Assembly: GCA_013812485.1 (NCBI GenBank)
Contig: JACCTJ010000142.1
Span: forward strand, 1-12,116
Length of the DNA stretch: 12,116 nt
Direction of reading: 5' to 3'
Origin: Thermoleophilaceae bacterium
Lineage (GTDB): Bacteria > Actinomycetota > Thermoleophilia > Solirubrobacterales > Thermoleophilaceae
Program-made: the position numbers and the translations under genes
The notes under the pieces: generated by a model
Database searches by the model: none
What the model saw: the letters and a program-made list of their open reading frames with translations, nothing else
What the model was told of the DNA's origin: nothing
In this document: positions 1 through 12,116 of the stretch, one piece after another
How the letters are laid out: the number at the start of each line of letters is the position of its first letter
How positions within the stretch are numbered: the first letter of the stretch is position 1

Positions 1-393
1 CATGCTGCCGAGCTGCGGCGACAGGCACGCGAGTCACGCGAGGTTGCTGTCGGTGAGCCACTCATCAGCTCTGACTCGATCAAGCGAGGTCTTCAGGCTC
101 TCAGCCAGGAACGGGTCGAGGACACTCTCCTAGCGGAAGCCGGTGACTACGCATCGACGATTGAGCGCTTCCGTGGCGGCAAGGCAGAGCACAATGAGGA
201 GTCGCTAGCCACCCTCCTCGAGGTCGCAGTGGGGGAGGTCCGAACGGTCGTCACGCCTCTGGTCGAGCTCGGCTTCCTAGAGAAGGCGGGCGAGAGCTAC
301 AAGGTGCCGATGCTCTACCGAGAAGGTCTGTCGATAACTCAGGGCAAGGCCTTCGCGTCGGACGGGCAAGACGAGACCGCCGACGAGTCGTAG
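1..393 (+). CDS. Partial CDS (5' end off window): C-terminal 130 residues of an unidentified protein
   Basis: An open frame runs from base 1 to a TAG at 391-393 and encodes 130 residues with no start in view, so the N-terminal part lies outside the window. The first half is charged and helical (LRRQARESREVA, ERVEDTLLAEAGDYASTIERF). The second half, about residues 78-117, looks like a winged-helix-type domain (TPLVELGFLEKAGESYKVP, then LYREGLSITQGKAF), followed by a short acidic tail. This ending resembles the C-termini of some large bacterial P-loop ATPases (the Sll1717-like group), but I see no catalytic motif and give no function. By hand count about 35 of 130 codons end in A or T, far more than in the purine genes to the right. 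Together with the tRNA fragment at 538-581 this suggests cargo of an integrated element. It is convergent with purH. Confidence 0.6.
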   Translation, partial: HAAELRRQARESREVAVGEPLISSDSIKRGLQALSQERVEDTLLAEAGDYASTIERFRGGKAEHNEESLATLLEVAVGEVRTVVTPLVELGFLEKAGESYKVPMLYREGLSITQGKAFASDGQDETADES

Positions 394-414
394 GACAGCG
401 CGCGAGCGGCCGGG

Positions 415-445
415 TACCTGGTCCCCGGCGACCGGGGACCAGGTA
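415..445. repeat. Perfect 14-bp inverted repeat (hairpin) in the convergent intergenic region
   Basis: The arms 415-428 (TACCTGGTCCCCGG) and 432-445 are exact reverse complements separated by a 3-base loop (CGA). It begins 21 bases after the stop of the partial plus-strand gene and lies about 185 bases past the purH stop. It could act as a bidirectional transcription barrier, but neither side is followed by a T tract, so it is not a classical intrinsic terminator. CGGGGACCA occurs at 433-441 (within the right arm) and again at 447-455, and AAACCGAGG is repeated at 455-463 and 465-473. Such repeats could also be recombinase or accessory-protein arm sites near an attachment junction. Confidence 0.55.
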
Positions 446-537
446 ACGGGGACCAAACCGAGGAAAACCGAGGCGAACGGGGGGAAGCGAAGAGCCCACC
501 GCAGAGCGGGAAAGTCCCAGCAAAACGGCCCCTACCC

Positions 538-581
538 GACTCTTAATCCGCGCGGCGAAGGTTCGAGTCCTTCCGGGGGCA
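538..581 (+). other. 3' fragment of tRNA-Lys(CUU): attachment-site remnant
   Basis: The bases read as the 3' part of a tRNA. The anticodon loop CTCTTAA is at 540-546 with anticodon CTT, the 3' anticodon strand is 547-551, and a 5-base variable loop is 552-556. The T arm is GAAGG/CCTTC at 557-561 and 569-573, five perfect pairs around the loop TTCGAGT. The 3' acceptor strand CGGGGGC is 574-580 with discriminator A at 581. CCA is not encoded. Upstream there is no D arm and no complementary GCCCCCG strand, and the 5' anticodon strand pairs poorly, so it cannot be a working tRNA gene. It is best read as the displaced half of an integration target. Confidence 0.75.
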
Positions 582-629
582 TCGGCTCGCACGGCCTGGG
601 CGCCGGTCGCGCCGCCGCCCGCTCGCCGC

Positions 630-2276
630 TCAGTGGCGGAAGTGCCGCCGAGCGGTCACCACCATGGCCACCCCGGCGCGGTCGCACGCCTCGATGACCT
701 CGGTGTCGCGCTGCGAGCCGCCCGGCTGGACGATGCACCGCACCCCGGCCTCGATGGCGACCTCGGGCCCGTCGGCGAAGGGGAAGAAGGCGTCGGAGGC
801 CATGACGCCGCCCGACAGCGCGACACCGCCCTTCTCGACGGCTAGCCGGACGGAGTCGACGCGGCTCATCTGCCCCGCCCCGATCCCCACCGTGGCCATG
901 TCTTTGGCCAGCACGATCGCGTTCGAGCGCACGTGCTTGCACACCTTCCAGGCGAACAAGAGGTCGTCCCACTCCTCATCGGTCGGCCCGCGCTCGGTGA
1001 CGACCTCCATGTCCTCCCGCGACTCCGGAGACTCGTCGCGGTCCTGGACGAGCAGGCCGCCGCGCACGCGCCGCATCTCGTGGTCGGTGTCGGGCCAGCC
1101 GCGGCGTTCGGCGTCGCGCATAATCCGCAGGTTCTCCTTCTGCTGAAGGAGCTCGCAGGCGTCCTCGTCGTAGTCGGGCGCGAAGACCATCTCGACGAAC
1201 ATCCCGCTCAGCTGCTCGGCGAGCTCGTGATCGACGGAGCGGTTGACGCAGACGACGCCCCCGAACGCGCTCGTCGGGTCGGTGGCGAGCGCGCGCTCAA
1301 AGGCCTCGCGCGGGCTGTCGGCTACGGCGCACCCGCAGGGGTTGTTGTGCTTGACGATCGCCGCGGCCGGACCTTCGAACTCGCCGACCAGCCGGCGCAC
1401 GGCGTCGAGGTCGAGCAGGTTGTTGAACGACAGCTCGCGGCCGTGGAGCTTCGAGACCATCGAGAGCAGGTGCGTGCGGGCGCCGGCCTGGGCGTAGTAG
1501 GCGGCGCGCTGGTGCGGGTTCTCGCCGTAGGAGAGGTCGAGGATCTTCTCGTAGGCGCGCACGTAGAGGGCCGGGAAGTCCTGCTCGCGCTCGGAGAACC
1601 AGCGCGCCACCGCGGCGTCGTAGCGAGCGGTGAGCGAGAACGCCTCGAGGGCGAGCGCCTGCCGGGTCTGGGCCGAGATCCGGCAGCCAAGGGTATGCAG
1701 CTCCTCGAGCACCGCGTCGTAGCTCTCCGGCTTGACCACGGAGGCCACGAAGGCGTGGTTCTTGGCCGCGGCGCGGATGATGGTCGGGCCGCCGATGTCG
1801 ATGTCCTCGATCACCTCGGCGTCGCTGGCGCCGCGGCGATTCGCGGTGCTCTCGAAGGGATACAGGTTCACGCACACGAGGTCGATCGGCTCGATCGCGT
1901 GCTCGTCGAGCGTGGCGGAATGCGCCGGATCGGAGCGCACCGCGAGCAGGCCGGCGTGGATGCGCGGGTTGAGCGTCTTGACGCGGCCGTCGAGTATCTC
2001 GGGGAAGCCGGTCAGGTCCTCGACGGCCCGGCTCTCGATGCCGGCGTCGGCGAGCTTGCGGGCGGTCCCGCCGGTGGAGATGAGCTCGACGCCGAGGTCG
2101 GCCAGCCCGCGGGCGAAGTCGACGAGGCCGCGCTTGTCCGAGACGCTGATGAGCGCCCGGCGCACGCGGACCTCGGCGGGCGGATTGAGCGGCGGAGCGC
2201 TGGCGGGAGCGCACGCCCCGGGCTCGCGCTCTGCGCCGTCGGTTGCGGTGCCCGTGCCCTGCTCAGTGCTCGCCAT
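630..2276 (-). CDS. purH: Bifunctional purine biosynthesis protein PurH (AICAR formyltransferase / IMP cyclohydrolase)
   Basis: This cytosolic enzyme catalyses the last two steps to IMP: formylation of AICAR with 10-formyl-THF, then cyclisation of FAICAR. The 548-residue product has an MGS-like cyclohydrolase domain at about 38-180 (ALISVSDKRGLVDFA, STGGTARKL, DGRVKTLNPRIHAGLL). The formyltransferase domain follows from about 185 to the end, with LSYGENPHQ (248-256), GRELSFNN (279-286) and KHNNPCG (K309, H310). The C-terminus ends in the usual TARRHFRH. It is slightly longer than many homologues because of a low-complexity leader of about 35 residues. The ATG at 2276 is supported by a good Shine-Dalgarno, GAGGAAGGG, at 2281-2289. 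It overlaps the end of purN by 14 bases in another frame and is the last gene of the cluster. Confidence 0.98.
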   Translation of the reverse strand: MASTEQGTGTATDGAEREPGACAPASAPPLNPPAEVRVRRALISVSDKRGLVDFARGLADLGVELISTGGTARKLADAGIESRAVEDLTGFPEILDGRVKTLNPRIHAGLLAVRSDPAHSATLDEHAIEPIDLVCVNLYPFESTANRRGASDAEVIEDIDIGGPTIIRAAAKNHAFVASVVKPESYDAVLEELHTLGCRISAQTRQALALEAFSLTARYDAAVARWFSEREQDFPALYVRAYEKILDLSYGENPHQRAAYYAQAGARTHLLSMVSKLHGRELSFNNLLDLDAVRRLVGEFEGPAAAIVKHNNPCGCAVADSPREAFERALATDPTSAFGGVVCVNRSVDHELAEQLSGMFVEMVFAPDYDEDACELLQQKENLRIMRDAERRGWPDTDHEMRRVRGGLLVQDRDESPESREDMEVVTERGPTDEEWDDLLFAWKVCKHVRSNAIVLAKDMATVGIGAGQMSRVDSVRLAVEKGGVALSGGVMASDAFFPFADGPEVAIEAGVRCIVQPGGSQRDTEVIEACDRAGVAMVVTARRHFRH

Positions 2277-2907
2277 GTCGCCCTTCCTCGATCACGATCC
2301 TCCGCCGGTTGCCCGACTCTGCCCGCTCTTCGCGCAAAGCGCCGCGGGCGATCATTCGGATGGCCTCGGGCAGGAGCCGATGCTCGACGGCGTGGATCCT
2401 CTGCTCGACGCGCGTGATGTCGGGAGCATACGGAAGGTCGAACGCCTCCTGCAGCAGGATCGGGCCGGTGTCGATCCCCTCGTCCACGAAGTGGACGGTC
2501 ACGCCCGTCACCCGCACGCCGTATTCGAGCGCCTGCTCGATCGCCCGCACGCCCGGAAAGGCGGGCAGGAGCGACGGATGCACGTTAATCATGAGGCCCT
2601 CGAAGCGGCGGATGAAGCCGGCGCTGAGGAGCTCCATGAAGCCTGCGAGCACGATCAGGTCGACCTCGTGGCCGGCGAGGAACTCGGCCAGGGCCTGGTC
2701 GCGCGCGGCCCGGGTCTCGTATTCGTCCGCCGGGTAGACACCGGTCTCCACGCCCGCGGCCTGCGCGCGCGCGAGCCCTTTCGCCTCGGCGCGGTTGGCG
2801 GCCACGCAGACGACCTCGATCCCGTCGCGCCCGTGCACCGAGTCGAGGATGGCCTGGAGGTTCGTGCCCGCCCCCGACACGAGCACTCCGAGCCGGAAGG
2901 GCCTCAC
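2263..2907 (-). CDS. purN: Phosphoribosylglycinamide formyltransferase (GAR transformylase, 10-formyl-THF dependent)
   Basis: It transfers the formyl group of 10-formyl-THF to GAR, the third step of purine synthesis, in the cytosol. The 214-residue product is full length for PurN. It shows the phosphate-binding start LGVLVSGAGTNLQAIL (6-21), the catalytic INVHPSLLP with N108 and H110, and VHFVDEGIDTGPIL with D146. I chose the GTG at 2907 because homology begins right there (VRPFRLGVLVSG) and because its GTGA overlaps the TGA of recQ (2904-2906). The frame stays open further upstream, but that part is antisense-like arginine-rich shadow of recQ. Its end overlaps purH by 14 bases. Coupling to recQ means expression probably depends on translation of the helicase. 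Confidence 0.97.
   Translation of the reverse strand: MRPFRLGVLVSGAGTNLQAILDSVHGRDGIEVVCVAANRAEAKGLARAQAAGVETGVYPADEYETRAARDQALAEFLAGHEVDLIVLAGFMELLSAGFIRRFEGLMINVHPSLLPAFPGVRAIEQALEYGVRVTGVTVHFVDEGIDTGPILLQEAFDLPYAPDITRVEQRIHAVEHRLLPEAIRMIARGALREERAESGNRRRIVIEEGRHGEH
2281..2289 (-). promoter_or_regulatory. Ribosome binding site of purH
   Basis: On the minus strand GAGGAAGGG is followed by CGAC and the ATG at 2276. It is the clearest Shine-Dalgarno in the cluster. It lies inside the last codons of purN, so it supports this start and allows purH to be initiated independently of purN termination. Confidence 0.7.
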
Positions 2908-4670
2908 CCCGCCCGGGCGAGCGGTGCCTTGAGCACGGGATAAGCGCCGCCGCTCGTCGCCAGGCGGCCCTCGCCGATCAGCTCGTCGATGCGAGCGAGG
3001 ATGTCGGCTCGGCGGCGACGGGCCGAGGTCGCGTACGCCGGCAGCCCGTCGTAGGAGTTGCGCTCGATCTTCTTGGTCCGCGCGCCGTGGAGGATCTCGG
3101 CGCAGGTCGTCCGGCCCACCGAGGGCTTGGCGGCCCGCGCGACCGAGATGATCGCGTCGTCGAGTTCGCCGACCGCGACCGGATCGGGCGGAGCGGCGAC
3201 CCGAACGAGGCCGCTGTCGCAACCGTCGCAGCAGTCGCCCTCGGCGCTCGGCTGCGCGTGGTCGCCGAAGTGGCGAAGGATGGCCCGGCGCCGGCAGGAC
3301 CCCGTCTCGACGTAGCCCCAGATTTCGCGGTACTGGCGCCACCGCGCGCGCGTGCCCTCAGCCGCCAGGGCGTGGCACTGGGCGGCCGCCCGGCGATCGA
3401 AGGGCCGGGCCATTCGCCCGGCCACGCGATCGGGTGGCGAGGGTGCCGGCTCGATCACCCCGGCGCGAGCGAGATGCCCGAGCAGCGCCCGGAGGCCGTC
3501 AGCCTTCACTCCGAGGCTGCGACCGAGCTCGTCCGCGGCGGCGCTGTAAAGGCCCTCGAGATCGACCGCGGCGTCGGTCAGCAGACCCGCGAGCCGTCCC
3601 GGCAGCCGCTCGTCGAGCTCGTCGCGGCGGATGAAGTGGACGTGCAGGGCCTTGTCGCGGTTCTCGGCGAGCAGCAGCGCGCGCGAGAGTCGCCCGTCGC
3701 GGCCGGCACGACCGGCCTCCTGGTAGTAGGCCTCGAGCGAGGCGGGCACGCTGGCGTGGATGACCGTGCGCACGTTCGGCTTGTCGACACCCATGCCAAA
3801 GGCGTTCGTGGCCACGACGACGCGAACCTCGTCGGCCAGGAAGGATCTCTGTACTCCGGCGCGCCGCTCGCGCTCCAGGCCGGCGTGATACGGCAGGACC
3901 TTCTCGCCCAGGGCTCCGGCGAGCTCCTGCGCCAGCTCCTCGCAACCCGCGCGCGTGCCGGCGTAGACGATGGCCGGCAGCGCGTCCTCGCGCGAGAGCT
4001 CGGCGATGATCATCCGCGACTTCTCGTGACCTCCGGGCCGGGCGACCGCGAACGACAGGTTGGGCCGGTCGAAGCCGGTGGCCACGCGCGCGGGCTCGCG
4101 CAGTCCGAGCCGCGCTTCGATGTCGACCGCGACCCGCGCCGTGGCGGTCGCCGTCGAGGCGAGGATCGACCGGGCGCCGAGGTAGCGCGCAGCGTCGGCG
4201 AGGCGGAAGTAGTCGGGACGGAAGTCGTGGCCCCACTGGGAGACGCAATGGGCCTCGTCGACCACGAACAGGCCGACGCTGGCCTCGCGGATCCCCGCCA
4301 CGAAGCGCGGCGAGGAGAAGCGCTCGGGCGCGACGTAGAGCAGGCGCAGGTCGCCCGCCGTGGCGCGGGCGAGCGCGGACTCGTTCGCGCCCGCCTCCTG
4401 CTGCGAGTTGATCAGGGCGACCTGCTCGCGGAAGCCGCGCGCGGCGAGGGCCTCGACCTGGTCCTGCATGAGCGAGACGAGCGGTGAGACGACGATCGTC
4501 AGGTCCTCGCCCATGAGACCGGGAAGCTGGTAGCAGAGCGACTTGCCCGAGCCCGTGGGCATGACCACGAGCGCGTCGCGCCCGGCCAGGGCGGCCTCGC
4601 AGGCCTCGCGCTGGCCGGCACGAAAGGCGGAGAAACCGAAGTTCTCGAGCAGGGCTGCATCGAGGTCCAT
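2904..4670 (-). CDS. recQ: RecQ-family ATP-dependent DNA helicase
   Basis: This is a 3'-5' superfamily 2 helicase for recombination and fork repair. The 588 residues hold Walker A PTGSGKS (38-44), DEAH box (138-141), the aromatic-rich loop SQWGHDFRPDY (144-154), ASTATAT (171-177) and the RecQ block YYQEAGRAGRDG (315-326). A cysteine cluster (C459, C480, C481, C484) fits the zinc site. The end (about 500-580, EILHGARTKKIE, DGLPAYA) resembles an RQC winged helix; no HRDC domain is present. About 80 residues lie between the helicase core and the zinc site beyond what E. coli RecQ has, with a winged-helix-like look, so this may be a RecQ paralogue rather than the strict orthologue. It follows purF after a 119-base gap and shares GTGA with purN. 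It has no evident role in purine synthesis. Confidence 0.95.
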   Translation of the reverse strand: MDLDAALLENFGFSAFRAGQREACEAALAGRDALVVMPTGSGKSLCYQLPGLMGEDLTIVVSPLVSLMQDQVEALAARGFREQVALINSQQEAGANESALARATAGDLRLLYVAPERFSSPRFVAGIREASVGLFVVDEAHCVSQWGHDFRPDYFRLADAARYLGARSILASTATATARVAVDIEARLGLREPARVATGFDRPNLSFAVARPGGHEKSRMIIAELSREDALPAIVYAGTRAGCEELAQELAGALGEKVLPYHAGLERERRAGVQRSFLADEVRVVVATNAFGMGVDKPNVRTVIHASVPASLEAYYQEAGRAGRDGRLSRALLLAENRDKALHVHFIRRDELDERLPGRLAGLLTDAAVDLEGLYSAAADELGRSLGVKADGLRALLGHLARAGVIEPAPSPPDRVAGRMARPFDRRAAAQCHALAAEGTRARWRQYREIWGYVETGSCRRRAILRHFGDHAQPSAEGDCCDGCDSGLVRVAAPPDPVAVGELDDAIISVARAAKPSVGRTTCAEILHGARTKKIERNSYDGLPAYATSARRRRADILARIDELIGEGRLATSGGAYPVLKAPLARAG

Positions 4671-4676
4671 GAGGCC

Positions 4677-4682
4677 ACCCTA
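4677..4682 (-). promoter_or_regulatory. Candidate -10 element of a leaderless promoter for recQ-purN-purH
   Basis: TAGGGT on the minus strand is followed by exactly six bases (GGCCTC) and the recQ ATG at 4670. This is the TAnnnT-N6-start layout of leaderless actinobacterial transcripts. There is no TTGACA-like -35 and no TGn extension. The 119-base gap after purF has only two tiny hairpins with TCG loops (CGGCT/AGCCG and CGCT/AGCG) and nothing else I recognise, which makes an internal promoter reasonable. Confidence 0.35.
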
Positions 4683-4789
4683 CCGGCGCCCGCGGCGGCC
4701 GGAGAGGCCTCCGCGGCCTTCTTCACGTCCTCGTCACGCTCGAAGCGAGGTTGTCGATCGCCGGCTCGAAGCCGTTCCCAGGAAATAGC

Positions 4790-6226
4790 TCAGACCGGCG
4801 TGACCGCCAGCTCCTCGAGCGCGTACTTGCCGTTCGCCGCGCCCGTGCGCACGAGCGGGTAGTCGCCAGTGAAGCACGCGTCGCAATGCGTCGCGCGCTC
4901 GACCCCGACGGCCTCGTAGACCCCCTCGAGCGACAGGTAGGCGAGCGAGTCGCAGCCGAGCTCGGCCGCCACCTCCTCGACGGTGCGCTCGTGGGCGATC
5001 ATCTCCTGCGGCGTCGACATGTCGATGCCGTAATGGCACGGGTGGCGGATCGCCGGCGCCGAGATGCGCAGGTGGATCTCGGTGGCGCCCGCGCCGCGCA
5101 GCATCCCCACGATCTGGCGCGTCGTGTTGCCGCGCACGATCGAGTCGTCGACCACGACGACGCGTTGGCCGCCGACCACCTCGGGTAGCGGGTTGAACTT
5201 CATCCGCAACCCGTGCTTGCGCAGCTCCTGGCCGGGTTGGATGAACGTGCGGGCCACGTAGCGGTTCTTGATCAGCCCGTCGTCGCGCGGGATGCCGGAG
5301 GCGAGCGAGTAGCCCGCGGCGGCCGGGTTTCCGGAGTCGGGCACGGCCACCACGACATCGGCCTCGACCGGCGCCTCGCGCGCGAGCATCTCCCCCATGC
5401 GCCGGCGGGCGACCTGCGTGCGCACACCCTCGAGCACGGAGTCGGGCCGCGCGAAGTAGATGTGCTCGAAAACGCAGAAGGCGCGGCGCTCGGAGTGGGC
5501 GACCTGGCGCGTCTCGAGCCCGCGGTCCGACAGCGAGACCATCTCGCCGGGCGCGACCTCGCGCATCAGCTCGGCGCCGATGATGTCGAAGGCGCAGCTC
5601 TCGGAGGCCACGCAAAAGCGATCGCCTAGGCGCCCTAGCGACAGTGGACGCAGGCCCAGCGGATCGCGAAAGGCGACGACGGCGTCGCGGGTCATGACCA
5701 CGGTCGAGAGTGCGCCCTCGAGCCGCGGCACGACGTCGGCCACCGCGTCCTCGACGGTCTCGGCCTCGTGGGTCGAGATCAGCGCGGCGATCAGCTCGGA
5801 GTCGGAGGTCGAGCGCAGCTGCACGCCGTTCTCACGCAGCTCGTCGTGGAGCTCGACCGCGTTGATCAGGTTGCCGTTGTGGGCGAGGGCGAGCTCACGG
5901 TGGTCGGAGCGGTAGATCGGCTGGGCGTTCTCCCACGCCGAGGAGCCTGTGGTCGAGTAGCGCACGTGGCCGAGGGCCATGTCGCCGCCGAGCGCGCGCA
6001 GCTTGGTCTCGTCGAAGACCTGCGAGACGAGGCCGAGGTCGCGCAGGGTCATGATGTGACGGGACTCGCAGGTGGCGATCCCGGCCGACTCCTGACCGCG
6101 GTGCTGGAGCGCAAAGAGGGCGAAGTAGGCGAGGCGCGCGACCTCGGAGCCGGGCGCGTGTATGCCGAAGACGCCGCACTCGTCGCGCGGCCCGTCCCGC
6201 TCGGGAATCGAATCCTCGGGGCTCAT
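4790..6226 (-). CDS. purF: Amidophosphoribosyltransferase (glutamine PRPP amidotransferase)
   Basis: It catalyses the committed first step, PRPP + glutamine to 5-phosphoribosylamine. The 478 residues begin with a 16-residue propeptide before C17 in DECGVFGI, the nucleophile exposed by self-cleavage in this class. Then come the N-terminal glutaminase domain ([11 protein letters not shown] 41-51, HNGNL 116-120) and a phosphoribosyltransferase domain with the PRPP loop [13 protein letters not shown] (357-369). C251, C397, C448 and C451 match the four ligands of the [4Fe-4S] cluster known from the Bacillus subtilis-type enzyme, so this is probably the oxygen-sensitive iron-sulfur form. The ATG at 6226 overlaps the purL stop (ATGA, 6223-6226) and has no visible Shine-Dalgarno, which points to translational coupling. 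In many bacteria purM follows; here recQ does. Confidence 0.98.
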
Positions 6227-8460
6227 GAGAAGTGGTCCGCGACGCCGTGTTCGAAGGCCTCTCTGGCGGCGGCGACCTCGATCGCGAGTCTAGCGGTGGT
6301 GCCGGTCTGGATGGCCAGATGTTCGCCCCCGGTCTCGCCGAGGATGAGGGCGGTGTCAGGCGTGAGGCTCGCGACGAGCTGCTCGACGGAGCCGCGCGGT
6401 CCTGCGGCCACGATGCCGCCGGGGCCCTCGCCGAAGAGCGCCGCCTCGAGCGCGCCCGCCTCGTCGTCGCTCTCGCCGAGACGGGCGACGAGCGCGGCGA
6501 GGTCGACGCGCGCACCGATTCCTCGGGCCAGACACGACTCCGCGAGCGCGCAGGCGAGGCCGCCGTCGGAGACATCGTGAGCGGTGGCCAGCTCACCGGC
6601 GCGCACGGCCGTGCGGGCCGTGGCGAGCGCGCGCGTGTGGGCCTCGAGGTCGAGCTTCGGCAGGCTCTCGGCCATCTCACCACGAAGCGCCTCGAGCTCC
6701 GACCCGGCGAGGGCGGGACGGAACGGGCCGAGCAGGACGATCGCGTGGCCGTCCTCGACGAAGCCCGCCTCCGGCAGGGAGCCGGGATCGGGCACGCGCC
6801 CGACCATGCCGACGACCGGCGTGGGGTAGATCGGCCCGCCGCCGCCCTCGTTGTAGAGCGACACGTTGCCGCCGACCACCGGAACACCGAGCGCCCGGCA
6901 GGCGTCAGCCAGCCCGGCGACCGCCTGCTCGAGCTGCCAGGCGATGTGGGGCTTCTCGGGGTTGCCGAAGTTGAGGCAGTTGGTCAGGCCGAGCGGCTCG
7001 GCGCCGACGCAGGCCAGGTTGCGTGCGCACTCGAGCACGGCCTCGACCGCCCCGACGTAGGGATCGCAGGCCACGCGCCGCCCGTTGCCGTCGATAGACA
7101 CCGCGATGGCGCCGCTCGCGCCGTCGTGGGCGAGGTGCAGGACGGCGGCGTCGGCGGAGCCCGGACGGCGCACCGTGCGAGAGCCGACCAACCCGTCGTA
7201 CTGCTCGTAGGCCCAGCGCTTCGAGGCGATGTTCTCGGAGCGCAGCAGGGCGATCAGCGTGTCGGCCGGGTCGGCGCACTCGTCGAGCCGCGCCCGCGGC
7301 GCGGCGTAGACCGACTCGCTAGGGCGCTCGGGCGCGAGGTCGTAGAGCGGGCAGTCGTCGACGAGCGCCTCGACGGGCATGTCGCCAACCGGCTCGCCCT
7401 GCTCGAGCACGCGCAGCCGGCCGGTGTCGGTGACCGCGCCGATCGCCGTGCAGCGCACGTCCCACTCCTCGCAGACCGCGCGCACCGCCTCGAGCCGTCC
7501 GGGCTCGACCACGCACAGCATCCGCTCCTGCGACTCCGAGACCATCACCTCGAAGGCCTCCATGCCCGGCTCACGGCGCGGCACCCGCGCGACGTCGAGA
7601 TCGATCCCGACCCCGCCCTTGGAGGCCATCTCCGACGCGCTCGAGCTCAGCCCGGCCGCGCCGAGATCCTGAAGCGACTCGAGCAGCTCACGATCGAGCA
7701 GCTCGAGGCAGCACTCGAGCACCTTCTTCTCCTCGAACGGGTCGCCGATCTGCACGCTCGGGCGCTTCGACGCGCTCTCCTCGCCGAGCTCGGCGCTTGC
7801 GAGCACGGAGGCGCCGCCGATCCCGTCACGGCCGGTAAGGGCTCCGAGCAGAACCACCAGGTTCCCCACCCCGGCCGCCGCGCTGCGGACGAGCCGCTCC
7901 CGCGGGGCGATCCCCACGCACATCGCGTTGACGAGGCAGTTGTGTTCATAAGGCTCCCCGAAGAGGATCTCTCCCCCCACCGTGGCGACGCCGATCGAGT
8001 TCCCGTAGTGGCCGATGCCTGCGACCGCGCCGTTCATGAGGTAGCGCGAGCGCGACGAGTCGAGCGGGCCGAAGCGCAGCGAGTCGAGCACGGCGATCGG
8101 CCGCGCCCCGATCGCGAACACGTCGCGGAGGATGCCCCCGACGCCGGTCGCCGCCCCCTGGAAGGGCTCGACCGCACTCGGATGGTTGTGCGACTCGACC
8201 TTGAAGGCGACCGCGAGCCCGTCGCCCACGTCGACCGCGCCCGCGTTCTCGCCTGGCCCCATGACCACGTGCTCGCCCTCGGTCGGGAGTCGCCCCAGTA
8301 GCTTGCGCGAGTGCTTGTAGCCGCAGTGCTCCGACCACATGAGCGAGAAGACCGCGAGCTCAACGTCGTTGGGCTCACGGCCGAGGCGGTCGACGATGCG
8401 CTCGTACTCGGAGTCGGTCAGCCCGAGAGCGCGGTGGCGGGCATTGGCGGCCGACGTCAT
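6223..8460 (-). CDS. purL: Phosphoribosylformylglycinamidine synthase, large subunit PurL
   Basis: With PurQ and PurS it converts FGAR, glutamine and ATP to FGAM. This is the small-type PurL (745 residues, no glutaminase domain), which explains the separate purQ and purS. Visible motifs are [10 protein letters not shown] (42-51, with the conserved histidines H45 and H50), [19 protein letters not shown] (88-106), the [10 protein letters not shown] loop, and HDVSDGGL in the C-terminal repeat. I chose the ATG at 8460: [19 protein letters not shown] aligns with family N-termini and ATGA overlaps the stop of the VapC-like gene (8457-8459). The frame continues open to 8811, but the added residues are low-complexity shadow of vapC. 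The purF ATG overlaps its stop. Its direct coupling to a toxin gene instead of purQ is unusual. Confidence 0.98.
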
Positions 8461-8864
8461 CGGCCGAGGAGGTGCGCATCGACGCCGCAGCGTTGATAGG
8501 TCTCGCGCGCGCGCCTGTCGCAGGTGAGCAGGCTTGCCCCTGCCGACGCTGCGGTGAGCGCGATCAGAGCATCGTAGACGGCGCCGCCCGCCACCTCGAG
8601 CTCGACGAGCCGCGGTACGAGGAGCCGCTGATCTCGAGGTCGGAGCGTCAGATAGGAATCCGAGAAGGAACGCTCGAGATAGTCCCTCACCGCTACGCCC
8701 GACACCCGGTTGGGCGGTGGAAGCCGAGTGAGCACCGAGTAGGTCTCGAGGGCGCTGTGTGCAACAAGGCGCGCGCCCTCCCGGAGGGCCACCCGCGCAG
8801 CTGCGTGCCACTCGTGCCAGCGGGCGAAGCCGGCAACGGCGACCGACGTGTCAGCGACGATCAC
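8457..8864 (-). CDS. vapC: VapC-like PIN-domain toxin (putative ribonuclease)
   Basis: PIN-domain toxins of type II systems are Mg2+-dependent ribonucleases that cut tRNA or rRNA and are held inactive by a partner antitoxin. The 135-residue product has the full acidic set: D5 (IVADTSVAV), E40 ([11 protein letters not shown]), D98 ([10 protein letters not shown]) and D116 (LLTCDRRA), so nothing suggests inactivation. The GTG at 8864 shares GTGA with the antitoxin stop (8861-8863), and its own TGA overlaps the purL start (ATGA, 8457-8460). The exact RNA target cannot be read from sequence. Codon use is as GC-rich as in the pur genes, so it is well adapted to this genome. The family call is firm; the toxic activity is inferred. 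Confidence 0.92.
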
Positions 8865-9106
8865 CGGCGCACGCGCTCGAGCGTCGCCCGCACCTGATCG
8901 GCGGTGAGGAGCGGCAGGTCACGGTCGGGGACGGCGAACACCGCGCCGTCCTCCTCGACGAGCGTCACCGGAGTGGTCGCCGGCTCGACCTCCAGTCGAC
9001 CGTCGCGGGCCTGGAGCTCAAGCTCCTGTCCCGGCTGGAGCCCGAGCTCGTCACGGAGCGGTTTCGGAACGACTAGCCTGCCGGCGCGGTCAATGGTAGT
9101 TCTCAT
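8861..9106 (-). CDS. vapB: VapB-like antitoxin, AbrB/MazE/SpoVT fold
   Basis: This 81-residue protein has an N-terminal swapped-hairpin DNA-binding domain (RTTIDRAGRLVVPKPLRDELG, residues 2-22, then LQPGQELELQARDGRLEVEP to about 42). A C-terminal tail follows (VPDRDLPLLTADQVRATLE) of the kind that wraps the PIN partner. The expected role is to neutralise the VapC-like toxin and, with it, repress its own promoter. The start is the ATG at 9106, 39 bases after the purQ stop. There is no Shine-Dalgarno, but TGGTAGCCT ends six bases before the ATG, a leaderless promoter layout. Its stop overlaps the vapC GTG, the usual antitoxin-first order. Confidence 0.92.
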   Translation of the reverse strand: MRTTIDRAGRLVVPKPLRDELGLQPGQELELQARDGRLEVEPATTPVTLVEEDGAVFAVPDRDLPLLTADQVRATLERVRR

Positions 9107-9109
9107 GGC

Positions 9110-9128
9110 AGCAGGCTACCAATCTGCT
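9110..9128 (-). promoter_or_regulatory. Candidate leaderless promoter and operator of vapBC
   Basis: On the minus strand an extended -10, TGGTAGCCT (9121-9113), is followed by six bases and the vapB ATG. No -35 is evident, as is common with extended -10 promoters. The -10 is enclosed by a short inverted repeat AGCAG/CTGCT (9110-9114 and 9124-9128), placed where an AbrB-fold antitoxin could autorepress. The repeat is short and could be chance. Confidence 0.4.
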
Positions 9129-9145
9129 CGGTCGTCGCGGCGGCG

Positions 9146-9826
9146 CTATACGAGCACGGGGGCCTCGTTCTCTACCTGCTCCACTGACGCGAACAGCTTC
9201 CCTCCGTCGGTCGACCCGGTGAGCGGGTCGGTCGCGTGCTCGGGATGCGGCATCAGGCCGAGCACGTTGCCGGCCTCGTTGGTCACGCCGGCCGCATCGC
9301 GCGCCGACCCGTTCGGATTGTGTCCCTCGGCGTAGCGCAGCGCGATCTGGCCGCCCGCCTCCATCTGGTCGAGCACATAGTCCGGCGCGTAGAAGCGGCC
9401 GGCTCCGTGCTTGACCGGCAGCGACAGCCGCTCCGCGCGCGCGCACGCGTGCGTGAACACGGTGTCCGGGTTGCCCACACGGACATCGACCTGGCGGCAC
9501 AAGAAGCGCAGGCCCGTGTTGGGAAGCAGGGCGCCCGGAAGCAAGCCGGCCTCGCACAGGACCTGGAACCCGTTACAGATGCCGAGCACCGGACCGCCGG
9601 CGCGCGCGAACTCCGTCACCGCCTCCATCACCGGCGAGAAACGCGCGATCGCCCCGACGCGCAGGTAGTCGCCGTAGGAGAAGCCGCCGGGCAGCACCAC
9701 GGCGCCGACGCCGCGCAGATCGCGCTCGCGGTGCCATAGGATCTCCGCGTCGGCGAAGCGACGGCAGGCAAGCAACGCGTCGACCTCGTCGCAGGAGCCA
9801 GGGAACCGAACAACCCCAAACCTCAT
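9146..9826 (-). CDS. purQ: Phosphoribosylformylglycinamidine synthase, glutaminase subunit PurQ
   Basis: It is a class I glutamine amidotransferase that feeds ammonia to PurL in the PurSQL complex. The 226 residues are typical: FGVVRFPGSCDEVDAL (3-18), LPGGFSYGDYLR (45-56), nucleophile C84 in GICNGFQVL, and H194/E196 in MPHPEHATD complete the triad. I use the ATG at 9826, where homology begins and AGGGG lies 5 bases upstream. An in-frame ATG at 9850 would add eight residues and has a slightly better Shine-Dalgarno (GAGGA at 9858-9862), so that start is possible. A 106-base gap with a hairpin separates it from purS. Its usual neighbour purL is pushed away by the vapBC pair. Confidence 0.97.
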   Translation of the reverse strand: MRFGVVRFPGSCDEVDALLACRRFADAEILWHRERDLRGVGAVVLPGGFSYGDYLRVGAIARFSPVMEAVTEFARAGGPVLGICNGFQVLCEAGLLPGALLPNTGLRFLCRQVDVRVGNPDTVFTHACARAERLSLPVKHGAGRFYAPDYVLDQMEAGGQIALRYAEGHNPNGSARDAAGVTNEAGNVLGLMPHPEHATDPLTGSTDGGKLFASVEQVENEAPVLV

Positions 9827-9869
9827 CCGGACCCCTGCAAACCGGCGCATGTCGGCGTCCTCGGAGCTC

Positions 9870-9887
9870 CGCTTGGCCCGCCAAGCG
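9870..9887 (-). repeat. Short perfect hairpin in the purS-purQ gap
   Basis: Arms 9870-9877 (CGCTTGGC) and 9880-9887 are exact reverse complements with a 2-base centre, effectively a 7-bp stem with a 4-base loop. It sits 20-37 bases upstream of the alternative purQ start at 9850 and just before the GAGGA motif. It could affect purQ translation or mRNA processing. There is no T tract, so it is not an intrinsic terminator. The rest of the 106-base gap (9827-9932) shows no ORF or RNA motif I recognise. Confidence 0.4.
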
Positions 9888-9932
9888 TTCGCCCCTGCGT
9901 CCTTGACCTGCTTGGTTTTCGGGGCCGGACGG

Positions 9933-10160
9933 TCACTGTGCCCCGACCTGCACCTCGTAGTCCTCGACCAGCGGGTTGGCCAGCAGCTGCTCGCACATCT
10001 CCGAGACCCGCGCCGGGTCGGCGACCTCGAGCTCGACCAGCCGGCCGACGTGGACCGACTCGACGCCCTCGAAGCCGAGGGCGGGCAGCGCGCGCTCGAC
10101 CGCCTGACCCTGAGGATCGAGGATGCCCTCCTTGGGGCGTATGAGGACACGAACCTTCAT
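9933..10160 (-). CDS. purS: Phosphoribosylformylglycinamidine synthase subunit PurS
   Basis: This small subunit helps assemble PurL and PurQ and pass ammonia between them in FGAM synthesis. The 75 residues match the family's size and pattern: MKVRVLIRPKEGILDPQG (1-18), AVERALPALGFEGVESVHVG (20-39), then the second strand-helix unit LVELEVADPARVSEMCEQLL and a LVEDYEVQV ending. The ATG at 10160 overlaps the doxX stop (ATGA, 10157-10160). There is no separate Shine-Dalgarno worth naming, so it is probably coupled to doxX translation. The assignment is firm because the fold signature and the purQ neighbour agree. Confidence 0.95.
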   Translation of the reverse strand: MKVRVLIRPKEGILDPQGQAVERALPALGFEGVESVHVGRLVELEVADPARVSEMCEQLLANPLVEDYEVQVGAQ

Positions 10161-10606
10161 TCCGCGCGCGGGGCGGTGGGTGACGGTGGCTCGGCCAACG
10201 ACGCCATCTTAAGAGGCGGGTCAGACCCAGCCGCGCTCGAGCGGGAGTGCCGGCCGAGCGCCGGGCGCACCGGCCAGGCTCCACCGCGAACGGCGATCAG
10301 GATCAGCAGGGCCGCCAGGATCGGCGGCGCGAGGAGGTGGACCCCGCCGTCGACGAGGCCCGCGGTCAGGAGCGCGCCGGCCATGTCAACCGTCAGCACG
10401 GCGGCTGCCCAGCGCGGGACAAAGCCGGCCACGAGCGCGAGCCCGCCGACCACCTCGAGCGACCCGACGGCGTAGACGAACAGCTCCGGAGCCGGCAGGC
10501 CCCAGCGGTCGAAGCTCGCGACAGTCTGGCCGTGGAAGAGGAACTTCGGCACCAGCCCGGCCAGCACGAACTGGAGGCCGACCAGCACTCGGACGGTGGT
10601 CAGCAC
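10157..10606 (-). CDS. DoxX-family small membrane protein
   Basis: The product of 149 residues has four likely membrane helices at about 5-22, 42-62, 65-84 and 91-107. Between the first two lies the loop typical of DoxX-like proteins (KFLFHGQTVASFDRWGLP, 21-38), and a soluble Ser/Pro-rich tail follows from 115. DoxX relatives include a subunit of an archaeal quinol oxidase and proteins linked to oxidative stress and thiol redox; the function here is unknown. The GTG at 10606 is chosen because the first helix begins there; a TTG at 10615 would add three residues. The open frame upstream is antisense shadow of purC. It starts 32 bases after the purC stop, and its own stop overlaps the purS start, so it belongs to the operon. 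Confidence 0.85.
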   Translation of the reverse strand: MLTTVRVLVGLQFVLAGLVPKFLFHGQTVASFDRWGLPAPELFVYAVGSLEVVGGLALVAGFVPRWAAAVLTVDMAGALLTAGLVDGGVHLLAPPILAALLILIAVRGGAWPVRPALGRHSRSSAAGSDPPLKMASLAEPPSPTAPRAE

Positions 10607-10638
10607 GCGCCGCAAGCGGCGGCGTGGCGGGTCTACTA

Positions 10639-11529
10639 CTAGGAGCCCGTGCGCTCGAGCCACGCCGAGAACGGCTCGCCCGTGATGCGCTCGTAGGCCT
10701 CGACGTACCGCCGCCGAGTCCCCGCGCACACGTCGTCGGGCAGCGGGGGTGCGGGCGGCGTGCGGTCCCACCCCGCGCTCATGACCCAGTCGCGCACGAA
10801 CTGCTTGTCGAAGGAGCGCTGACCGCGGCCCGGCGCGTACTCGTCGGACGGCCAGAAGCGCGAGGAGTCGGGCGTGAAGGCCTCGTCGCCAAGGACGATC
10901 TCGCCGTTCGAGGAGCGACCGAACTCGAGCTTGGTGTCGGCCAGGATGATCCCCCGCTCGCGGGCGTGCGCGCCGGCGAACCGATACAGCTCGAGCGACA
11001 GTCGGCGCAGCTCCTCGAGCAGCTGGCGATCGTCGAGGATCTCGGCCGCGCGGTCGAAGTCGACGTTCTCGTCGTGGTCGCCGGCCTCGGCCTTGGTGGC
11101 CGGCGTGAAGATCGGCTCGGGCAGCTCGGCCGACTCCTCGAGACCCGCGGGCAGCCCTATCCCGCAGACCGCGCCGCTCTCCCGGTAGTCCTTCCAGCCG
11201 GATCCCGTGAGGTAGCCGCGCACGACGCACTCGACCGGGAACATCTCGAGCTCCTCGACGAGCAGGCCGCGCCCGCGCGCCTCGCCGGGGACGTCGGTGT
11301 AGGAGACGAGGTGGTTCGGGCAGATCTCCGCCGTGCGCGCAAACCAGAACGCCGACAGGCCGGCGAGCACCTTGCCTTTGTCGGGCACCGGCGTGGGATG
11401 GACGACGTCGTAGGTCGAGACGCGGTCCGAGGCGACCATGAGCAGCCGTCCGTCAGCCCGGTACATCTCGCGGACCTTGCCGCTGGCCACGAGCTCGAGG
11501 CCGTCGAGGGAGGTCTGCGGAGGGGTCAC
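10639..11529 (-). CDS. purC: SAICAR synthase (phosphoribosylaminoimidazole-succinocarboxamide synthase)
   Basis: It joins aspartate to CAIR with ATP to give SAICAR. From the GTG at 11529 the product has 296 residues, the family's normal length. It shows GKVREMY (17-23), ASDRVSTYD (33-41), PVECVVRGYLTGSGW (98-112), the SAICAR synthase signature LPEPIFTPATKAEAGDHDEN (136-155), ILADTKLEFG (195-204) and DEAFTPDSSRFW (215-226). The frame does not stop upstream: it continues through a complete TetR-type C-terminal domain to the window edge, so a fused TetR-PurC protein is possible. For the GTG start speaks an extended -10, TGTTAGCCT, ending seven bases before it, which would give a leaderless purC mRNA. 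No Shine-Dalgarno is present. doxX follows after 32 bases. Confidence 0.95.
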   Translation of the reverse strand: MTPPQTSLDGLELVASGKVREMYRADGRLLMVASDRVSTYDVVHPTPVPDKGKVLAGLSAFWFARTAEICPNHLVSYTDVPGEARGRGLLVEELEMFPVECVVRGYLTGSGWKDYRESGAVCGIGLPAGLEESAELPEPIFTPATKAEAGDHDENVDFDRAAEILDDRQLLEELRRLSLELYRFAGAHARERGIILADTKLEFGRSSNGEIVLGDEAFTPDSSRFWPSDEYAPGRGQRSFDKQFVRDWVMSAGWDRTPPAPPLPDDVCAGTRRRYVEAYERITGEPFSAWLERTGS

Positions 11530-12116
11530 GGACGCGAGGCTAACAGTGTCCGGGGTAGGGTCGGAGGCCCGCGCGCTGGCGCCGGCGAGGAGCACGGAGA
11601 GCACCTCGCCGAAGAGGCTCGGGGGCACCGAGCCGGGGTCGACGAGCCGCTGGAGGGCGAGCCCGTCGGCGAGCGCGTCGATGGCGGTGGCGAGCTGCTC
11701 GGCGGGCAGTGTCGGGCGCAATCCGAGCTCCCGCGCGGAGTCGTCGATCAGGCGCGCGGTGGCCGCGCGCGGCTCGGCGTAGGCGGCGGCGAAGCGCGGA
11801 CGCATCTCGGGGTCGCGCACCGCGTAGGCCCAGAACTCCATGAACAGGAGCACCTGCTCGGGTTCGCGCTCGACGAAGCGCATCCACTCGGCGGCGGCGC
11901 CGTGGGCGCGCTCCTCGACGGTCGGGCGCTCGGCGACCGCATCGGCGACCCGGCTACTCACGCGCTCGACGTTGCGCGTCAGAAGCGCCAGGAAGAGCTC
12001 CTCCTTGCCGCTGAAGTTCGAGTAGAGCGCTCCCGTCGAGAAACCGGCCTCGCCGGCGACCTCCTCCACGGACGCACCCGCGTAACCTTCGCGCGCGAAG
12101 ACCCGCGCCGCGGCCT
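11530..12116 (-). CDS. TetR-family transcriptional regulator, N-terminus off window, in frame with purC
   Basis: The frame enters at the window edge with AAARVFAREGYAGAS and continues into a textbook TetR helix-turn-helix (VEEVAGEAGFSTGALYSNF, ending SGKEELF; about residues 16-41 of the visible part). A helical ligand-binding and dimer domain follows to about residue 180, ending LFGEVLSVLLAGASA, the normal end of such regulators. 195 residues are visible here; only the first few residues of the protein should be missing. There is no stop before purC, so as sequenced the regulator either continues into PurC as a fusion of more than 490 residues or has lost its stop. The ligand is unknown. Autoregulation of the purine operon is a natural guess from position only. 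Confidence 0.88.
11537..11545 (-). promoter_or_regulatory. Candidate extended -10 promoter element for purC and the operon
   Basis: TGTTAGCCT on the minus strand fits an extended -10 (TGn-TAnnnT). Seven bases separate it from the purC GTG at 11529, which suits leaderless initiation. A weak -35-like CCGACC lies 16 bases upstream (11559-11564). The TAG inside it would stop one of the other two reading frames, but not the frame used by the TetR domain. Confidence 0.4.

Follow-up and report, generated by a model that had tools for sequence, protein, structure and literature searches.

An open frame joining a TetR regulator to PurC

The locus lies at the end of a 12,116-nucleotide stretch of DNA from a Thermoleophilaceae bacterium (GenBank assembly GCA_013812485.1, contig JACCTJ010000142.1, positions 1 to 12,116), which is referred to as a whole as the window; the genome it comes from is designated G000. 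On the minus strand a frame from 12114 to 10639 contains 491 codons without a stop and runs from the window edge through a TetR-family repressor and a short linker into a full-length PurC (SAICAR synthase), ending at a stop codon at 10639-10641. Its parts, including a comparison with the same-genus genome G003, are as follows.

11581..12114, minus strand: TetR-family repressor domain, consisting of a helix-turn-helix and a BetI-type ligand domain (Pfam TetR_N 3e-13, TetR_C_6 1.1e-15; dN/dS 0.10 against G003)
11530..11580, minus strand: linker of 17 codons between TetR and PurC, free of stops in the frame, relaxed by dN/dS and predicted to be coil (predicted pLDDT below 50 at residues 177-199)
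11537..11542, minus strand: TAGCCT, putative -10 element of a leaderless purC promoter inside the linker (from motif conservation and the reading frames)
11527..11529, minus strand: GTG, likely start of free PurC and residue 196 of the fused frame (from motif conservation)
10639..11529, minus strand: purC, encoding a complete SAICAR synthase (Pfam SAICAR_synt 9.5e-73; NCBIfam NF010568)

A first-pass annotation of the window, made from its letters and open frames, had described one uninterrupted TetR-PurC frame with a short unstructured linker, and both descriptions were confirmed. Pfam placed TetR_N at residues 1-44, TetR_C_6 at 67-172 and SAICAR_synt at 209-452 of the single frame of 491 codons, and the helix-turn-helix and the TetR C-terminal domain exceeded the Pfam cut-offs in both G000 and G003, with the N-terminus of the TetR truncated in G000 by the window edge at 12114. 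The PurC part scored 388.8 bits against NF010568 (cut-off 251) over profile positions 7-295 of 297, and residues 201-486 of the fused frame aligned with positions 7-297 of 301 of the solved PurC 3r9r. It is a full-length match to actinobacterial PurC (NF010568; PDB 3r9r, 6yvq), differing from it in that the frame extends upstream into TetR and that the enzyme is likely also made in free form from GTG 11529. In the predicted structure of the fused chain, residues 182-206 form coil; the TetR half was modelled with low confidence (pLDDT mostly 50-70), because the alignment contained 18 PurC relatives and no TetR relatives. A stop-free linker is by itself unremarkable, as 17 random codons at the same GC content would be open 78% of the time. 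The notable feature is rather a TetR without its own stop, since a random linker is often open, yet other TetR loci have stops. Both other frames terminate at the purC start in G000, one at a TGA overlapping GTG 11529 and one at a TAG within the -10 box, the latter being the out-of-frame TAG at 11540-11542 that had been pointed out earlier.

As its second reading the initial annotation had proposed that purC starts separately at GTG 11529, downstream of a leaderless-type promoter, and conservation supports this proposal well. The TAGCCT hexamer (11542-11537) ends 7 nt before the GTG. In 30 of 31 purC loci (G000, G001 and 29 others, out of 100 genomes with a match; the sole miss was G059) TANNNT was followed after 4-9 nt by an in-frame ATG or GTG, compared with 1.1% of shuffles, which preserved base composition only. 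According to PMC3160421 and PMC3898074, leaderless genes of bacteria, Actinobacteria among them, are recognizable by a TANNNT some 10 bp before the start codon. The former describes such a -10-like box as the signal of leaderless genes in high-GC Actinobacteria, and the latter gives TANNNT as the common -10 motif of M. tuberculosis, where leaderless genes make up about a quarter of those with a primary start site. The box before purC is shared with these leaderless genes, but it lies within an upstream reading frame of the same phase. Given its presence in 30 of the 31 loci, the promoter inside the linker is probably ancestral, and free PurC is probably produced from GTG 11529.

Some other genes of the window were also noted. 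A DoxX-family membrane protein is encoded at 10157-10642 (minus strand) directly downstream of purC. Within the purine cluster a VapBC-like pair, made up of genes for a PIN-domain protein and a MazE-type antitoxin (8457-9106, minus strand), lies between purL-like and purQ-like frames, and a gene for a RecQ-type helicase with an RQC domain (2904-4670, minus strand) has neighbours that read from their translations as purN and purF.

A second fused genome and the rarity of the arrangement

The same TetR-PurC arrangement is carried by G003 (contig C88). Its frame comprises 513 residues from a likely ATG, a start that had to be deduced because the frame remains open upstream of it, and 21 of these residues lie beyond the G000 window edge. 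The G000 and G003 frames aligned gap-free over 490 codons, with 175 of 1470 bases (12%) being different. The earlier suggestion that a gained or lost base, through an assembly or sequencing error, conceals the TetR stop agrees with the finding that in G000 a shift to either other frame would end TetR at the TAG of the -10 box or at the TGA over the GTG, but it is not believable that two assemblies diverging by 12% share an identical one-base error; the open frame is real, and an error of this kind is highly improbable. The TetR-PurC open frame is a genuine gene fusion between neighbours, known from these two draft genomes. A PurC tree, unrooted within the genus, parted G000 and G003 from the same-genus genomes G001 and G002 with a support of 92/73, and this grouping makes a single origin of the fusion, before the split of the two sister species, the simplest reading, although not a proven one.

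Outside these two species the TetR ends where a separate protein would. Of the 232 genomes searched in the order, 27 contained it at an E value of 1e-40 or better, and the match continued into PurC only in G000 and G003. When homologous loci were compared, as the first reading of the window had proposed, the frame was open in G003, whereas the other 26 of the 27 TetR loci besides G000 had their own stop, at the equivalent of residue 184-226. Among 135 purC-bearing loci, of which some share a genome and none is that of G000, this TetR occurred near purC only once, in G003. No match across the TetR/PurC junction beyond G000 and G003 was present among the matches listed from 101 and from 31 genomes, or in 232 genomes at a threshold of 1e-40 and 399 genomes at 1e-60. 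These genome sets overlap and contain many drafts, a limited number of candidates was scored per genome, and the junction surveys detect a fusion with this TetR only, so that a fusion with a different TetR would escape them. Matches reaching well back into the TetR part were rejected for G005, G008, G013, G017, G023, G025, G027, G038, G058, G067, G072, G078 and G098, whose loci show no such TetR beside purC. Within the genus no ortholog of the fused TetR was found in G001 or G002; the gene upstream of purC reads like a fatty-acid desaturase in the former and is an R2-like gene in the latter. On these surveys the fusion of TetR and PurC neighbours appears to be rare, and searches of open-licence PubMed Central papers revealed no published TetR-PurC fusion.

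The comparison of G000 with G003 also gave an estimate of selection along the frame. In addition to the low dN/dS of the TetR, the PurC core had a value of 0.16, the opening 11 codons of PurC one of 1.26 and the linker one of 0.63. Purifying selection acts on TetR and on the core of PurC, whereas the linker is relaxed. Only 11 differences fall in the linker, and shifting its frame by one base as a control gave a dN/dS of 0.35, below that of the real frame, so that these figures do not indicate that the linker is read as protein, and dN/dS between the two genomes gave no clear sign that it is selected as a joint. Moreover, at a dS of about 0.37 a neutral linker would stay free of stops in 93% of cases if substitutions alone are counted, so that its persistence cannot separate a tolerated from a useful fusion. 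Because both species are fused and their TetR is selected without having its own stop, the working repressor is probably the fused TetR-PurC chain.

The usual partner of the TetR and a candidate operator

A divergent R2-oxidase-like/SCP2 gene lies opposite the TetR in 23 of the 27 loci besides G000, G003 included, while the TetRs of the other four loci, which are without an R2-like gene, are 42-46% identical and may be more distant paralogs. The partner gene of G003 contains Ribonuc_red_sm and SCP2 domains above the Pfam cut-offs; it is called R2-like only, because its scores against the NCBIfam models of R2-like ligand-binding oxidases fall short of their cut-offs (the highest, for NF006200, was 118.4 bits against a cut-off of 194). 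An exact GATA-N8-TATC palindrome was found in 21 of the 23 gaps between tetR and the R2-like gene, the other two gaps keeping 7 of the 8 fixed bases, and in 0 of 4600 shuffles of these gaps, which again preserved base composition only. The motif had been derived from six loci, so that the fair test is its presence in the other 17, of which 15 have it, and the 23 loci are not independent because many of them come from one genus (g42).

In G003 the gap (L117, just below 10933) contains the longer palindrome TCGGATA-N8-TATCCGA. Upstream of its tetR a TAGGCT box lies 8 nt before the likely ATG, and tetR itself may be leaderless too. In G002 (L118), which is without this TetR, the R2-like gene and purC are adjacent and the aligned gap does not match the palindrome; this genome is possibly a natural loss experiment, in which the TetR was lost or never present. 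The R2-like gene of G000 was found on another contig (C111), whose sequence ends 2 bases past the match and within the N-terminus of the gene, as expected if the assembly broke between tetR and the R2-like gene. The start of tetR and the palindrome lie outside the window, and both were read from G003.

The TetR shares with TetR/BetI-type repressors that are divergent from their target the helix-turn-helix, the BetI-type C-terminal domain, a divergent neighbour and a palindrome in the gap. Unlike in these repressors, its C-terminus lacks a stop codon and leads on into PurC. Its position opposite the R2-like gene, with a recurrent palindrome in between, suggests that the TetR represses the R2-like gene locally and does not act on purine genes, and no literature on TetR control of R2-like oxidases was found among the matches listed.

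Probable origin and function of the fused chain

In our assessment it is likely that loss of a stop codon joined a working repressor to its neighbour, and that one stretch of DNA now yields both TetR-PurC and free PurC. The TetR, which probably controls the divergent R2-oxidase-like/SCP2 gene, is encoded immediately before purC in the same orientation, and its stop codon would have been lost before the split of the two sister species, the tetR frame happening to match that of purC. Translation of the tetR message would then give a TetR-PurC protein about 512 residues long, still active as the repressor and carrying PurC as a tolerated passenger, and the nested promoter with its start at GTG 11529 would supply most PurC as free enzyme. 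As judged from these genome comparisons, the fusion is most likely accidental but lasting, and tolerated rather than a trigger enzyme.

Alternatively, the two halves might function as separate proteins only, with TetR being freed around residue 190 through proteolysis, a frameshift or incomplete messages, in which case the fusion would never accumulate. A relaxed linker predicted to be coil and the stops of both other frames at the G000 junction would suit such a process, but plain translation predicts the fusion, and we regard this alternative as unlikely, though not negligible.

BirA and PutA are examples of trigger enzymes and regulator-enzyme fusions, in which attachment to DNA at related genes is governed by the substrate of the enzyme. 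The TetR-PurC chain resembles them in combining a DNA-binding domain and a metabolic enzyme, but no link from a substrate to related genes was found. The first-pass annotation had raised the possibility of a trigger enzyme that senses CAIR, aspartate or ATP. In such an enzyme, binding of one of these to PurC would alter DNA binding of the attached TetR, and purine status would in this way control the R2-like gene or pur genes. The covalent joining of the two domains in two species, both domains being under purifying selection, speaks in favor of such an enzyme. However, the same TetR is normally unfused and faces a gene of the same kind across the same palindrome, the linker is relaxed, predicted to be coil and shows no clear sign of being selected as a joint, and free PurC is probably made as well. 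In addition, GATA-N8-TATC is absent from the window, including its purine cluster, even at one mismatch, although with a chance expectation of only 0.51 this is weak evidence, and in the four genomes of the genus GATAN8TATCC occurs only in the tetR/R2-like gap of G003, the corresponding gap of G000 being unassembled. A trigger enzyme acting on purine genes was therefore set aside, given the unfused TetR opposite an unrelated gene elsewhere and, with less weight, the window without a palindrome, and the trigger-enzyme proposal as a whole is improbable. The same low probability is given to a selected bifunctional chimera, in which binding of nucleotide or substrate to PurC tunes repression of the R2-oxidase-like/SCP2 gene and the nested promoter provides the free enzyme; if it were true, purine supply would be linked to the R2-like oxidase. 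Finally, that the TetR is a decaying gene and the readthrough into purC mere debris could be suspected from the lack of a TetR ortholog in G001 and G002, but it is very improbable in view of the low dN/dS of the TetR between the two fused species and the intact palindrome of G003.

The animal enzyme PAICS is a bifunctional PurE-PurC protein that joins two steps of one pathway. In PAICS PurC is likewise part of a fused protein, whereas the partner here is an unrelated regulator. As a by-product, the comparison of loci provides GATA-N8-TATC as a testable TetR operator for a family of R2-oxidase-like/SCP2 genes. The TetR-PurC frame itself would represent a clear natural case of the beginning of a gene fusion, in which the stop between unrelated neighbours is lost and both halves stay under selection, and this may cost little, since the enzyme can be made alone from a leaderless promoter concealed within the linker. 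It also advises caution when a function is deduced from the fusion of domains in a GC-rich genome, where long open frames arise easily.
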